Position numbers and translations under genes: made by a program
The notes under the pieces: generated by a model
The model's database searches: none
Told to the model about the DNA's origin: nothing
Seen by the model: only the letters and a program-made list of their open reading frames with translations
DNA from: a virus
Length of the DNA stretch: 20,224 nt
IMG/VR virus record: IMGVR_UViG_3300003322_000591
Location: 1-20,224 of that record
Direction: 5' to 3' (one strand)
Shown: one piece after another, positions 1-17,312 of the stretch
How the letters are laid out: the number at the start of each line of letters is the position of its first letter
Position numbering within the stretch: the first letter of the stretch is position 1

Positions 1-616
1 AGGCGCCCTCCCCCGGACAGATCGCGCGTTCGATCCGGTCCAGGTCGCCTTTGCTCATCCGGCCCGCGGCACAGGCGCCCACAGCCTCGAAGGCGTCGAT
101 GAGGGTGACCTCCTTCTCGGACCCGTCCTCCAGACGCACCCAGCCGGGCATGATGGAACCCGCATAGAGGAAGACGCTCGCCAGATCCAGGCGCGCGGCG
201 GCCATCAGCATTCCAGGGAGGGACTTGTCGCAGCCGGCGAGGAGCACCGAGCCGTCGATCCGCTCGGCCTGCATCACCGTCTCCACCGAATCCGCGATCA
301 CCTCGCGGGAGACGAGCGAGAAGTGCATCCCGTCGTGCCCCATGGAGATCCCGTCCGAGACCGAGATCGTGCCGAACTGCATCGGGAACCCGCCTCCGGC
401 GTGCACGCCCTCCTTCACCGCCAGGGCGAGACGGTTGAGCGACAGATTGCACGGGGTGATCTCATTCCACGAACTCGCGACGCCGATCTGCGGCTTCGCG
501 AAGTCCTCGTCACCCATGCCGACGGCACGGAACATGCCGCGCGCCGGGGCCGCGTGGATGCCGTCCGTCACCACCCGGGAACGCGGCTTGATGTCTGGAG
601 TGGGTTCTGCGGTCAT
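1..616 (-). CDS. ilvD: Dihydroxy-acid dehydratase, N-terminal 205 residues (cut by window edge)
   Basis: This is the start of the enzyme that dehydrates dihydroxy acids to 2-oxo acids in valine, isoleucine and leucine synthesis; it is a cytoplasmic Fe-S enzyme. The translation shows the family's opening block ([13 protein letters not shown], about residues 21-33), [10 protein letters not shown] with Cys56, the [10 protein letters not shown] block near 86-94, and [10 protein letters not shown] with Cys129 followed by Lys130, the usual Fe-S ligand and metal-site lysine. Cys200 (AICPG) would be the third cluster ligand. The ATG at 616 is preceded by GGAGG with a 5-base gap. The rest of the gene lies beyond base 1. 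It is a chromosomal housekeeping gene, divergent from the tRNA, and marks the left host flank of the prophage. Confidence 0.97.
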
Positions 617-902: not shown

Positions 903-978
903 GCACCTCTAGCTCAACTGGCAGAGCAATTGACTCTTAATCAATGGGTTCCGGGTTCGAGTCCCGGGGGGTGCACCA
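903..978 (+). tRNA. tRNA-Lys, anticodon CTT, with encoded CCA
   Basis: The 76-base gene folds as a cloverleaf. The acceptor arm GCACCTC pairs with GGGGTGC (one G-U), then A and CCA. The anticodon stem ATTGA/TCAAT encloses the loop CTCTTAA, giving anticodon CTT (reads AAG, lysine). The T arm CCGGG-TTCGAGT-CCCGG is canonical. The prophage is integrated in this gene: bases 942-978 are the attachment core, repeated at 17032-17068, so the integrated element leaves an intact tRNA. Confidence 0.97.
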
Positions 979-1261
979 CATTCGATGAAACCCCTTCGCC
1001 TCCGGGCGAGGGGGTTTTGTCGTTAACCGGCTCCCCCGTTTCGAGCCACGCGAACGGCGCGCCCGTACGAAGCGCCCACAGCCTGAGCGACTGACGGCTG
1101 GGCACGATCCGCCCATTGATCCAGTTACTAACCGTGGTCCGCGATACGCCCAGGTACTCAGCCATGTCCTGAACGCTCACGTCAGAGACGCGAAGCGCTC
1201 GACGCAGGCGGTCCGCTAGGTCGAACTCCCAAACTTGCACATGTTCCGGTTGTTGGCTCAT
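941..1261 (-). CDS. XRE-type HTH repressor; prophage form truncated at attL
   Basis: This 106-residue protein is the probable lysogenic repressor. Its DNA-binding domain spans residues 14-65, with the helix-turn-helix around 28-50 (VQDMAEYLGVSRTTVSNWINGR), followed by a Pro/Gly linker (80-95) and a tail PPGLEPGTH that is simply the tRNA core read on the opposite strand. The stop TGA (941-943) uses base 941, which is tRNA sequence outside the core. In the circular phage the same codon would be TGG and the frame would continue W-L-R-V-A-A before a stop. I chose the ATG at 1261; an upstream ATG at 1315 would run through the control region, and neither start has a good ribosome site. It is transcribed divergently from the early genes. 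The HTH call is secure; the repressor role is inferred from position. Confidence 0.88.
   Translation of the reverse strand: MSQQPEHVQVWEFDLADRLRRALRVSDVSVQDMAEYLGVSRTTVSNWINGRIVPSRQSLRLWALRTGAPFAWLETGEPVNDKTPSPGGEGVSSNVVHPPGLEPGTH
942..978 (+). repeat. attL core, 37-bp repeat within tRNA-Lys 3' half
   Basis: The 37 bases from CAATGGGTT to the terminal CCA of tRNA-Lys are repeated exactly at 17032-17068. Identity ends abruptly on the right (CA versus AC). On the left it decays through the anticodon loop: 7 of 10 bases match between 932-941 and 17022-17031. This is the signature of tyrosine-integrase insertion into a tRNA 3' end. Confidence 0.95.
988..1018 (+). terminator. Rho-independent terminator for tRNA-Lys, supplied by the phage
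   Basis: A 13-bp stem (988-1000 with 1005-1017, one G-U pair) with a 4-base loop is followed by TTTT on the plus strand. It lies 9 bases after the tRNA and inside the 3' part of the leftward repressor gene, where it encodes the repressor's Pro/Gly-rich linker. On the minus strand the hairpin has only a short T run, so it should act mainly rightward. Confidence 0.8.
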
Positions 1262-1383: not shown

Positions 1384-1587
1384 ATGCAAAGTCACTCCAT
1401 CCCCAACGAGCCGCGCATGGTGGTACCGGCCGACTTGATCGGCGTCGATGTCGCCTCCGAGATTCTGGGCATTAGCCACTCGGCAACCGTCCGCCGAGCC
1501 AAGAGCGGCACCATCCCCCTTCTCGCCCTCGTAGGCCGCTCCGGCGTGATGGTCTTCGACCGCTCCGACATCGAGGCGGTGAAGTAG
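1384..1587 (+). CDS. Small HTH DNA-binding protein, excisionase/Cro candidate
   Basis: This 67-residue protein is the first rightward gene after the operators. Residues 20-65 resemble the helix-turn-helix of the excisionase/MerR-like family: a DVASEILGISHSATVRRAKSG recognition segment, split here as residues 22-31 and 32-42, then a short hydrophobic wing (VMVFDRSDIEAV). The ATG at 1384 was chosen because the palindromes end just before it. There is no Shine-Dalgarno sequence, so the message may be leaderless; ATG at 1417 is an alternative. Position suggests a Cro-like antirepressor or recombination directionality factor. Which of the two cannot be decided from sequence. Confidence 0.7.
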   Translation: MQSHSIPNEPRMVVPADLIGVDVASEILGISHSATVRRAKSGTIPLLALVGRSGVMVFDRSDIEAVK

Positions 1588-15223: not shown

Positions 15224-15425
15224 TCACGAGGCACCCAGCCAGCCCCGCACCATCGGCCCCGTCACCACGGCGGCCATGGTCGGCGCGGCCGTCGCTGAGA
15301 TATCCATCTGGGCCACCGAGACCGCCGCGCACATCGACATACCGACGCCGATTGAGGGGTCTATCTCGGTCGTGTTCGTCGCGGTGTTCGGCTACCTCGT
15401 CCGACCCCGAAAGGCGACCGAATGA
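15216..15425 (+). CDS. Holin
   Basis: This 69-residue protein overlaps the endolysin end by 8 bases. It has two hydrophobic segments, about residues 14-33 (PVTTAAMVGAAVAEISIWAT) and 48-63 (SISVVFVAVFGYLV), and a charged C-terminus (RPRKATE), the layout of a small class II-type holin. It would form membrane lesions at the set time to release the amidase. Its stop overlaps the next start (ATGA). Confidence 0.8.
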   Translation: MADHEAPSQPRTIGPVTTAAMVGAAVAEISIWATETAAHIDIPTPIEGSISVVFVAVFGYLVRPRKATE

Positions 15426-15646
15426 GTATGCGCCGGACTATCGTGGAACAGCTCGCTGCACTCACCGCGACCATGGAGGGCTACGCGAAAGACACCAACA
15501 GGCGCTTGTCGACCGTAGAGCGCCGACAGGACCTCTATGAGGAACGTACCCGCCCTAAGCCGCCCACGCCCTGGTGGCAGCCCGCGGCCGCCGTGACGGC
15601 GGGGCTGGCCCTGTTCCTCACCATTGCTGACCGCCTCTGGAAGTAG
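15422..15646 (+). CDS. Second holin-like / lysis-associated membrane protein
   Basis: This 74-residue protein has an N-terminal helical, coiled-coil-like part (residues 3-42, EQLAALTATMEGYAKDTNRR then LSTVERRQDLYEER), a Pro/Trp hinge (PKPPTPWW) and one C-terminal membrane helix (52-70, AAAVTAGLALFLTIADRL). Proteins of this plan commonly follow the holin in actinophages and are thought to be partner holins or antiholins. It is the last gene of the rightward operon; the terminator begins 14 bases later. Confidence 0.75.
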   Translation: MSMRRTIVEQLAALTATMEGYAKDTNRRLSTVERRQDLYEERTRPKPPTPWWQPAAAVTAGLALFLTIADRLWK

Positions 15647-15660
15647 CCGACTGACCTGGG

Positions 15661-15704
15661 CAAACAAGAAACCCGCACGGGATCCCGTGCGGGTTTCTTG
15701 TTTG
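15661..15704. terminator. Perfect 44-bp palindromic bidirectional terminator
   Basis: Every base from 15661 to 15704 pairs: two 22-base arms with no designated loop (about 20 pairs after a turn of four). The GC-rich centre is flanked by AAGAAA/TTTCTT and CAAACAAG/CTTGTTTG, so both strands give a hairpin with a T-rich 3' side. It separates the convergent late operon and the minus-strand integrase operon. Confidence 0.92.
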
Positions 15705-15924: not shown

Positions 15925-16755
15925 CTAGCTCGCCGCCGCCAGCACGGCGTCCCACGCGTCGTCGTCCTCAACCTCCGTGTAAATGGCCGTGGTCTCCGGC
16001 GTCGTGTGTCCCAGGAGGTCTTGCACGGCACGAATATTCTTCCCTCCCCGGTTGAAGGCGGCCGACGCGAACCTGTGCCGGAGCTGGTGGCCCGTGGTGC
16101 CCGTGCCGAGCGCTTGAGAGAGCCGCTTTGAGACCGTCGCGGCCGCTAGGTGGCCGTCGATCTGCCCAGGGAAGAGATAGCCCCCTGCGGAACGGATGAC
16201 GGCCGCCAGACCATCCGGACACGGGAGCACGCGGACATGCCCGCCCTTGCCCTGAACGCGGAGCTTCCACCCGCGGATGGACTGCACGAGGTCGTCACTG
16301 TGCACCCGGGATATCTCCACGCACCGGAGACCCATCTCCGCGCCGAGGCGGATCATGAGCGCGTCCCGCTGGTCCGCATGGTCCCGGGCGTACTTCCATA
16401 CGCCCTCACGGGCTGGACGCGGGCGGCCTCGCTTCGCCCTCACGCTGGGCAGTGCGGCCGCTGGGGCGTCACTGGTGCGCCCGGTGGCCTTCCCCCAGTC
16501 GTAGAAGCTCCTGAGCGCGCTCCTGTGGCTCCTGATCGTGGTTGAGTCCCAATCATGCGAGCCAATCCACGCGGCGAGTTCATCGCCGGTCATGCTCCAC
16601 GGCGACCGGTCCGGGAACTCACGTGCTAACCGGTTGATCTGAGTGCGCCGGAGGTTAAGCGTGGAAAGGGGACGCGCGGCGGCTCGGAGCCAATCGAGCC
16701 ACGCCAGCACGTCCCCTGACCATGCGTCCGGAATGGGTGTCTTCTGGACCTTCAT
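15925..16755 (-). CDS. int: Tyrosine-type site-specific integrase
   Basis: This 276-residue recombinase integrates and excises the phage at tRNA-Lys. The core-binding domain (about 15-95) has the SAM-like helical pattern with TIRSHRSALRSFYDWG. The catalytic domain shows all active-site residues: Arg144 (MGLRCVEI), Lys170 (VQGKGGHVR), His223 and Arg226 (HQLRHRFA), His250 (LLGHTTPETT) and nucleophile Tyr259 (AIYTEV). The N-terminal arm-binding domain is reduced or missing, making it short for phage integrases. The ATG at 16755 follows AGGGGAATC. The C-terminus, LAAAS, is close to but not an ssrA-like end. A weak promoter-like pair (TTGTGC/TATCAC, 19-base gap) precedes it on the minus strand at 16802-16772. 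Confidence 0.95.
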   Translation of the reverse strand: MKVQKTPIPDAWSGDVLAWLDWLRAAARPLSTLNLRRTQINRLAREFPDRSPWSMTGDELAAWIGSHDWDSTTIRSHRSALRSFYDWGKATGRTSDAPAAALPSVRAKRGRPRPAREGVWKYARDHADQRDALMIRLGAEMGLRCVEISRVHSDDLVQSIRGWKLRVQGKGGHVRVLPCPDGLAAVIRSAGGYLFPGQIDGHLAAATVSKRLSQALGTGTTGHQLRHRFASAAFNRGGKNIRAVQDLLGHTTPETTAIYTEVEDDDAWDAVLAAAS

Positions 16756-16803: not shown

Positions 16804-17016
16804 TCAGAAAAACTCCACGTCACGCGGGTGCACGTAGTCACTGGTGAAGTCATCCCAGAGCACCTTGAACCCCTTGTCATTGACTCGGGTGATCTTCGCG
16901 CACCGGCCGTCGCGGTACCGCACCCTCTGACCGACGATGGAACGGCGGTTCGCTTCTGCCTCTCCAACGAGGTCAAGCCATGTGAGCCACGCACCCAAGG
17001 GCGTCCCGGCGCTCAT
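16804..17016 (-). CDS. 70-residue protein adjacent to attR, SH3-like
   Basis: This is a small protein of unknown function. The ATG at 17016 lies 8 bases after AAGGG. Residues 26-70 (VGQRVRYRDG, CAKITRVNDKGFKVLWDD, YVHPRDVEFF) have the strand pattern of an SH3/KOW-like barrel. The start lies 16 bases from the attR core. In the excised circle the extended repressor frame would end exactly here, with its TGA overlapping this ATG (ATGA), so the gene belongs to a repressor-to-integrase operon that integration splits. A longer frame running back to 17277 crosses host DNA and the att core and is not the gene. Confidence 0.75.
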   Translation of the reverse strand: MSAGTPLGAWLTWLDLVGEAEANRRSIVGQRVRYRDGRCAKITRVNDKGFKVLWDDFTSDYVHPRDVEFF

Positions 17017-17031
17017 GCCGCAACCCTTAAC

Positions 17032-17068
17032 CAATGGGTTCCGGGTTCGAGTCCCGGGGGGTGCACCA
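17032..17068 (+). repeat. attR core, 37-bp repeat of tRNA-Lys 3' half
   Basis: The 37 bases equal 942-978 exactly. The sequence to the left is phage DNA that only partly mimics the anticodon loop (CCCTTAAC for CTCTTAAT), so no second tRNA is formed. To the right begins host DNA with the displaced tRNA terminator. Confidence 0.95.
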
Positions 17069-17071
17069 ACG

Positions 17072-17116
17072 AGTCCCGCTCGATCTGCTGAAAGGCAAGA
17101 TCGGGCGGGACTTTTT
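17072..17116 (+). terminator. Original chromosomal terminator of tRNA-Lys, displaced by the prophage
   Basis: A 15-bp stem (17072-17086 with 17098-17112, one G-U) with an 11-base loop ends in TTTTT. It starts 4 bases after the attR core, where the tRNA terminator would lie before integration. The following stretch to 17312 holds no convincing gene. Confidence 0.88.
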
Positions 17117-17312
17117 CGTGCCCGGTCCTGGTCAGCTCCCACGGAAATGCCACGGAAATCCGAAGGGGTTCGAGGAAGGTCCCAACACCCCAGGCTGCCG
17201 GGAGGAGGCGGGCCCGCAGTCACCTTTGACTGAGTCCCCAACGAACACTTGAGCCACTGCCAGCGGCTCCACGTCACACCGGCGCCCTCGGCTGAGCGTC
17301 GATCACGGGGCG

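Follow-up and report, generated by a model that had tools for sequence, protein, structure and literature searches.

A probable integration-dependent immunity switch in a tiny prophage at tRNA-Lys of an Arthrobacter-like host

The prophage and its two repressor forms

The window, as we call the stretch of DNA analysed here, corresponds to an IMG/VR virus record of 20,224 bases and consists of a 16,090-bp prophage bounded by 37-bp att cores, with host DNA at both ends. We call the host Arthrobacter-like because the protein encoded by ilvD in the left flank is 94% identical to its Arthrobacter counterpart. The tRNA-Lys(CTT) occupied by the prophage matches, at 76 of 76 positions, many of the tRNAs found close to ilvD in several Arthrobacter genomes. 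The prophage gene set comprises terminase, portal, capsid, amidase endolysin, replication initiator, tyrosine integrase, and repressor, and it corresponds to those of BlueFeather, Berka, and Rahul, which are tiny actinobacterial siphophages. Every coordinate in an initial annotation of this DNA was reproduced to the single base when we re-derived it from the window sequence. The features used below are as follows.

2-616, minus strand: host ilvD, partial; 94% amino-acid identity to Arthrobacter spp.
903-978, plus strand: host tRNA-Lys(CTT), complete (ARAGORN), its 3' half forming the att core; 76/76 identical to Arthrobacter tRNAs
941-1261, minus strand: immunity repressor (ORF), prophage form, 106 aa, with TGA 941-943 completed by the host base; PHROG 2328, HTH_3
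942-978, plus strand: attL 37-bp common core (exact repeat); the preceding base, 941, is T, from the host, at tRNA position 39
983-1022, plus strand: hairpin with T-rich tail that closely follows the tRNA 3' end, on the strand opposite the repressor linker; proposed tRNA terminator carried by the phage
1384-1587, plus strand: small divergent HTH gene, Cro/excisionase-like; HTH_17 E 3.6e-4 (below the Pfam cut-off) and a weak match to PHROG 66 excisionase/regulator
15925-16755, minus strand: tyrosine integrase, 276 aa, C-terminus ...VLAAAS; Phage_integrase E 3e-16
16804-17016, minus strand: 70-aa ORF that separates repressor from integrase in the viral form; start codon overlapping the viral repressor stop (ATGA, 17013-17016)
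17013-17033, minus strand: segment holding the viral repressor stop (17013-17015), from comparison of att repeats and ORFs
17032-17068, plus strand: attR 37-bp common core (exact repeat); the preceding base, 17031, is C, from the phage
17071-17112, plus strand: the host's own tRNA-Lys terminator hairpin, moved to attR by the prophage; -33.6 kcal/mol for 17069-17125

A homologue of the divergent HTH gene adjoins the repressor in contig L152 and others. At the far end of the rightward genes, the last of which spans 15422-15646, a palindromic hairpin at 15668-15697 scores as a terminator on both strands.

In the integrated state, the repressor ORF runs on the minus strand from ATG at 1261 to TGA at 943-941 and encodes 106 residues. 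Profile searches place its product among the transcriptional repressors of PHROG 2328 (E 3.9e-24) and in HTH_3 (2e-8), and tblastn matches it to annotated immunity repressors of Mycobacterium, Gordonia, and Brevibacterium phages. The stop falls where the initial annotation had put it, with T941, outside the 37-bp core, completing the TGA, and the prophage repressor is thus shortened by a bacterial stop at attL. When phage side is joined to phage side, this codon becomes TGG and the frame continues as ...GTH-W-L-R-V-A-A-TGA to a stop at 17013-17015. The attP core therefore lies within the repressor coding sequence, and the joined sequence agrees with the read-through previously claimed, at 112 residues in the viral form vs. 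106 in the prophage.

In the viral form the tyrosine integrase follows the repressor, with one ORF between them. For this 70-aa ORF, profile searches returned no family above cut-off, and it had no phage match. Repressor endings of the ATGA type also occur in GMA5, Rahul, Dmitri, and Danyall. The overlap would couple translation of the ORF to the viral repressor only, and this coupling would vanish in the prophage. The core is long, the repressor stop overlaps the downstream gene as ATGA, and relatives show the arrangement again; these three points exclude chance as its source. The integrase itself is 42-46% identical to integrases of small Gordonia phages. Its C-terminus (15925-15930, minus strand) reads ...VLAAAS; several relatives' integrases end in AA or VA, and the integrase of mycobacteriophage BPs is reported to carry a C-terminal proteolysis signal (PMC4557955).

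Three sequence hallmarks define integration-dependent immunity (PMC9934374): the attP core lies within the repressor ORF, bacterial sequence supplies the stop at or near attL, and the viral form ends in an ssrA-like tag whose last two residues are alanine. As far as sequence can tell, all three hallmarks are present in the window, where the likeness to the tag is confined to the final AA. The tail had been called ssrA-like in the initial annotation, and this description holds for its two terminal alanines; the remainder of RVAA is unlike the host tag, as the related Arthrobacter tmRNA tag (AESKRTDFALAA or ANSKRTDFALAA) ends in ALAA and agrees with the tail only in the last two residues.

Among small temperate actinophages, 9 of 10 attP-containing repressors end in AA, compared with 6 of 105 coding sequences in four small phages. 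The endings are VAA in the window, Emperor, McGonagall, and Coeur, WAA in EricDab, AAA in GMA5, TAA in GRU3, SAA in SallySpecial, and HAA in Rahul, with Barebow (RAS) as the exception. The AA end is thus not universal, the read-through tail of the prophage in genome G238 being SRRA and that of Barebow RRAS. The prophage repressors of G417, G013, G012, G014, and G017 end at stops that lie within, or border on, sequence of the tRNA anticodon arm. Two further repressors, from tiny phage relatives in contigs L157 (5977-6258, minus strand) and L158 (1736-2143, minus strand), end in SLAA and ALAA where neither integrase nor tRNA core was detected, and they look as if permanently of the unstable form.

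We consider it very likely that the window system works as integration-dependent immunity. As long as the phage DNA is packaged or present as the infecting circle, the repressor gene would run through attP and end in ...WLRVAA, and this long form would be unstable, being degraded via its C-terminal AA signal to permit lytic gene expression. The tyrosine integrase would then recombine attP into the host tRNA-Lys, where T39 would convert TGG to TGA, and the repressor, now without its last six residues, would be stable and confer immunity. Integration would also put the 70-aa gene and the integrase out of reach of the repressor promoter, which may silence the integrase.

The loss of six residues could act by routes other than proteolysis. 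The two forms might instead differ in oligomerization or promoter contacts, an idea that draws on the suggestion for BPs that the longer form may activate and that mixed tetramers may form (PMC4557955), as well as on the relatives whose tails end other than in AA. However, AA ends are strongly enriched in this phage group and the long form of BPs was shown to be degraded (PMC4557955), and we regard this reading as improbable beside proteolysis.

Host and phage bases at tRNA position 39

The switch turns on a single base, and its origin on each side can be traced in relatives. Micrococcaceae tRNA-Lys(CTT) genes near ilvD carry A31/T39; two tRNA rows that instead read G/A reflect a one-base shift in the gene call. 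In a pattern search for the C39 version across 395 Micrococcaceae genomes, more than 100 one-mismatch copies were recovered, every one with T39, and the sole exact C39 copy was the attR of the prophage in G238. The initial annotation had taken the T at 941 to be the host base, and every comparable host tRNA-Lys gene examined carries T39.

The C in attR had likewise been judged likely to come from the phage, and three relatives bear this out. In G238, the C39 copy lies 39.5 kb from a T39 copy adjoining a repressor, repeating the window's pair of T at attL and C at attR. Its joined repressor reads ...RPPGLEPGTH-W-LRAG..., beyond the codon where its prophage form stops, and is 38% identical to the window's; the G238 element is a second, independent Micrococcaceae prophage at tRNA-Lys. 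Virion genomes of the Gordonia phages Coeur and Rahul have TGG as the equivalent codon (GLEPRTR-W).

The C could alternatively have arisen after integration, as a mutation in a functionless remnant, with the true attP carrying T and one TGA serving both forms, leaving no switch. The attR copy no longer encodes a tRNA and may drift, and attP is represented here by an inferred junction. Yet the same C is present in the unrelated prophage of G238, the equivalent base is found in packaged Coeur and Rahul DNA, and a C brings the repressor stop exactly onto the ATG of the next gene. We therefore set post-integration mutation aside as highly improbable.

The allele at position 39 also follows the reading frame of the core. 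The host base is retained in six phages that translate the tRNA-Lys core in a different frame (DSNPEPAD), and C39 is found where read-through requires it in 4/4 cases vs. 0/6 elsewhere (Fisher p 0.005; counted by lineage, 3 vs. 4, p 0.03). With T from the host and C from the phage, strand exchange must therefore occur 3' of base 941, within 942-978. Had exchange taken place in the anticodon loop, C would have to come from the host, which the host tRNAs contradict. Searches of IMG/VR found no contig with an exact match to the predicted attP sequence and no close relatives of the window's repressor. C-terminal repressor matches in G396, G375, and G172 were discarded, as they are mostly antisense readings of host tRNA and terminator.

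The hairpin opposite the repressor linker

Integration rebuilds the tRNA and moves its own terminator to the far end of the prophage, where the displaced hairpin at 17071-17112 matches in position the terminators that follow tRNA-Lys in relatives. Just past the rebuilt tRNA, opposite the linker of the repressor, the sequence from 979 to 1030 folds at -31.4 kcal/mol, similar in strength to the -33.6 kcal/mol of the displaced terminator, and a terminator scan matches 998-1015. Only 0.1% of background windows in this phage have a comparable terminator score.

Among loci whose repressor holds attP, 19 of 20 have a comparable hairpin, and 20 of 21 when G238 is added, usually 3-12 nt past the tRNA end; in this 20-locus comparison, the Cluster G phage Hope is without it. 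The stem sequences vary among phages, with compensating changes. An unbiased count of wobbles found 21 G-T on the tRNA strand and 1 A-C (p 1e-5, ignoring relatedness), a bias that makes sense if the tRNA-strand transcript is the RNA that functions. This count replaced perfect-stem length as our measure of the hairpin, since the latter fails at G-T pairs; the perfect-stem test reached significance at roughly half of the loci but not in the window itself (p 0.72).

These observations lead us to favor, with some reserve, a double role for the hairpin, as a tRNA terminator carried by the phage and as a protection of the repressor from antisense transcription. An intrinsic terminator opposite the linker would substitute for the one displaced from the tRNA, and it would halt strong tRNA transcription before this enters the repressor in antisense. 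We lean to a similar degree towards the general form of the proposal, that phages with attP in the repressor encode in its linker an antisense intrinsic terminator for the rebuilt tRNA.

The linker must also encode protein, and the hairpin might be a by-product of a conserved linker peptide with no terminator at all. Synonymous-codon shuffles gave z of only -1.3 to -3.1 per locus, from which we conclude that peptide composition accounts for part of the hairpin. These individually modest values and the window's perfect-stem p fit such an origin, as does the recurrence of SPDGDGA-like peptides in the linker. Integrase-less relatives bear on the same point, as 4 of 6 are without a strong hairpin and the remaining two, L157 and L158, have a linker hairpin without a tRNA core. 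However, the hairpin is kept despite different peptides and sequences in EricDab, Barebow, Cracklewink, G012, and G238, the wobbles and the T-rich tails both favor the tRNA side, and the strength of the fold is like that of the host terminator it would replace. A pure by-product of the peptide is therefore, in our judgment, rather unlikely, though less so than the alternatives weighed above.

If the hairpin is a terminator, about 100 bp would serve as protein linker, tRNA 3' half, recombination core, and insulating terminator, and the terminator would be a general, hitherto unremarked component of integration-dependent immunity. Confirmation would explain how a strongly transcribed tRNA gene is kept from silencing the repressor gene that faces it. 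Our literature searches, whose scope stopped short of the full text of Broussard 2013, found no description of a terminator inside the attP of such phages.

Comparison with known systems

The mechanism of integration-dependent immunity is established for BPs (PMC4557955). Like the window prophage, BPs and phages of Clusters G, I, N, and P (Broussard 2013; PMC4557955) have attP in the repressor gene, a viral form of the repressor that is longer than the prophage form, and an adjacent tyrosine integrase. The window's repressor is homologous to gp33 of the Cluster G phage Hope, in whose record an AttP is annotated within gene 33. Unlike the window prophage, these are phages of 41-50 kb that use other tRNA sites; the tail removed in BPs is 33 residues vs. 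6 here, and experimental proof comes from the BPs group alone.

The initial annotation knew of no report of this logic in a tiny actinobacterial siphophage, a claim that does not survive the literature. Gordonia Cluster CW phages, of 17.1-17.7 kb, are temperate and have integration-dependent immunity, and their 37-bp attP at tRNA-Lys is identical from one phage to the next (PMC5559632). The switch type in the window is thus already known from small Gordonia phages and is not unprecedented. Cluster CW (Jeanie, McGonagall, GMA5, and GRU3; PMC5559632) shares with the window phage a small genome (16-17.7 kb), a tyrosine integrase, attP in the repressor, the 37-bp attP at tRNA-Lys, and an AA-ended repressor, and in GMA5, too, an additional ORF with an ATGA overlap separates the repressor from the integrase. 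By contrast, the window's host is Arthrobacter-like, its integrase is 42-44% identical to theirs, and the core is read in another frame, so that the window phage needs C at tRNA position 39. A megablast search of 50,697 phage records found no DNA match to Cluster CW or to other phages.

Closer in frame are Coeur and Rahul (Coeurvirus, 16.2 kb), which have a tRNA-Lys attP in the same frame as the window's, TGG for the host TGA, and an AA end. They differ in their Gordonia host and longer tails, and the Rahul repressor is 43% identical to the window's. The closest structural and replication genes are instead in the IMG/VR contig G417 (L152), with 91% identity in the terminase and 95% in the replication initiator, and there too the prophage repressor terminates at a tRNA-derived TGA. 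However, the G417 integrase is only 27% identical, its repressor 54%, and its tRNA site is another one. The switch module appears to have been exchanged between the window phage and G417 (L152, L163, L164), with repressor, att site, and integrase traveling together.

Among Arthrobacter phages, a 2017 survey of 46 found Galaxy alone to be likely temperate, without this arrangement (PMC5513430), and our literature search found, in the papers it covered, no later report of such immunity in them. Galaxy is probably temperate and has its integrase and repressor arranged as in such systems, but its attP lies outside the repressor and a degradation tag was not recognized (PMC5513430). The window would add a tiny prophage from an Arthrobacter-like host to the systems with integration-dependent immunity, one in which a single nucleotide, at tRNA position 39, determines whether the repressor retains its tail and the phage allele follows the reading frame of the core.
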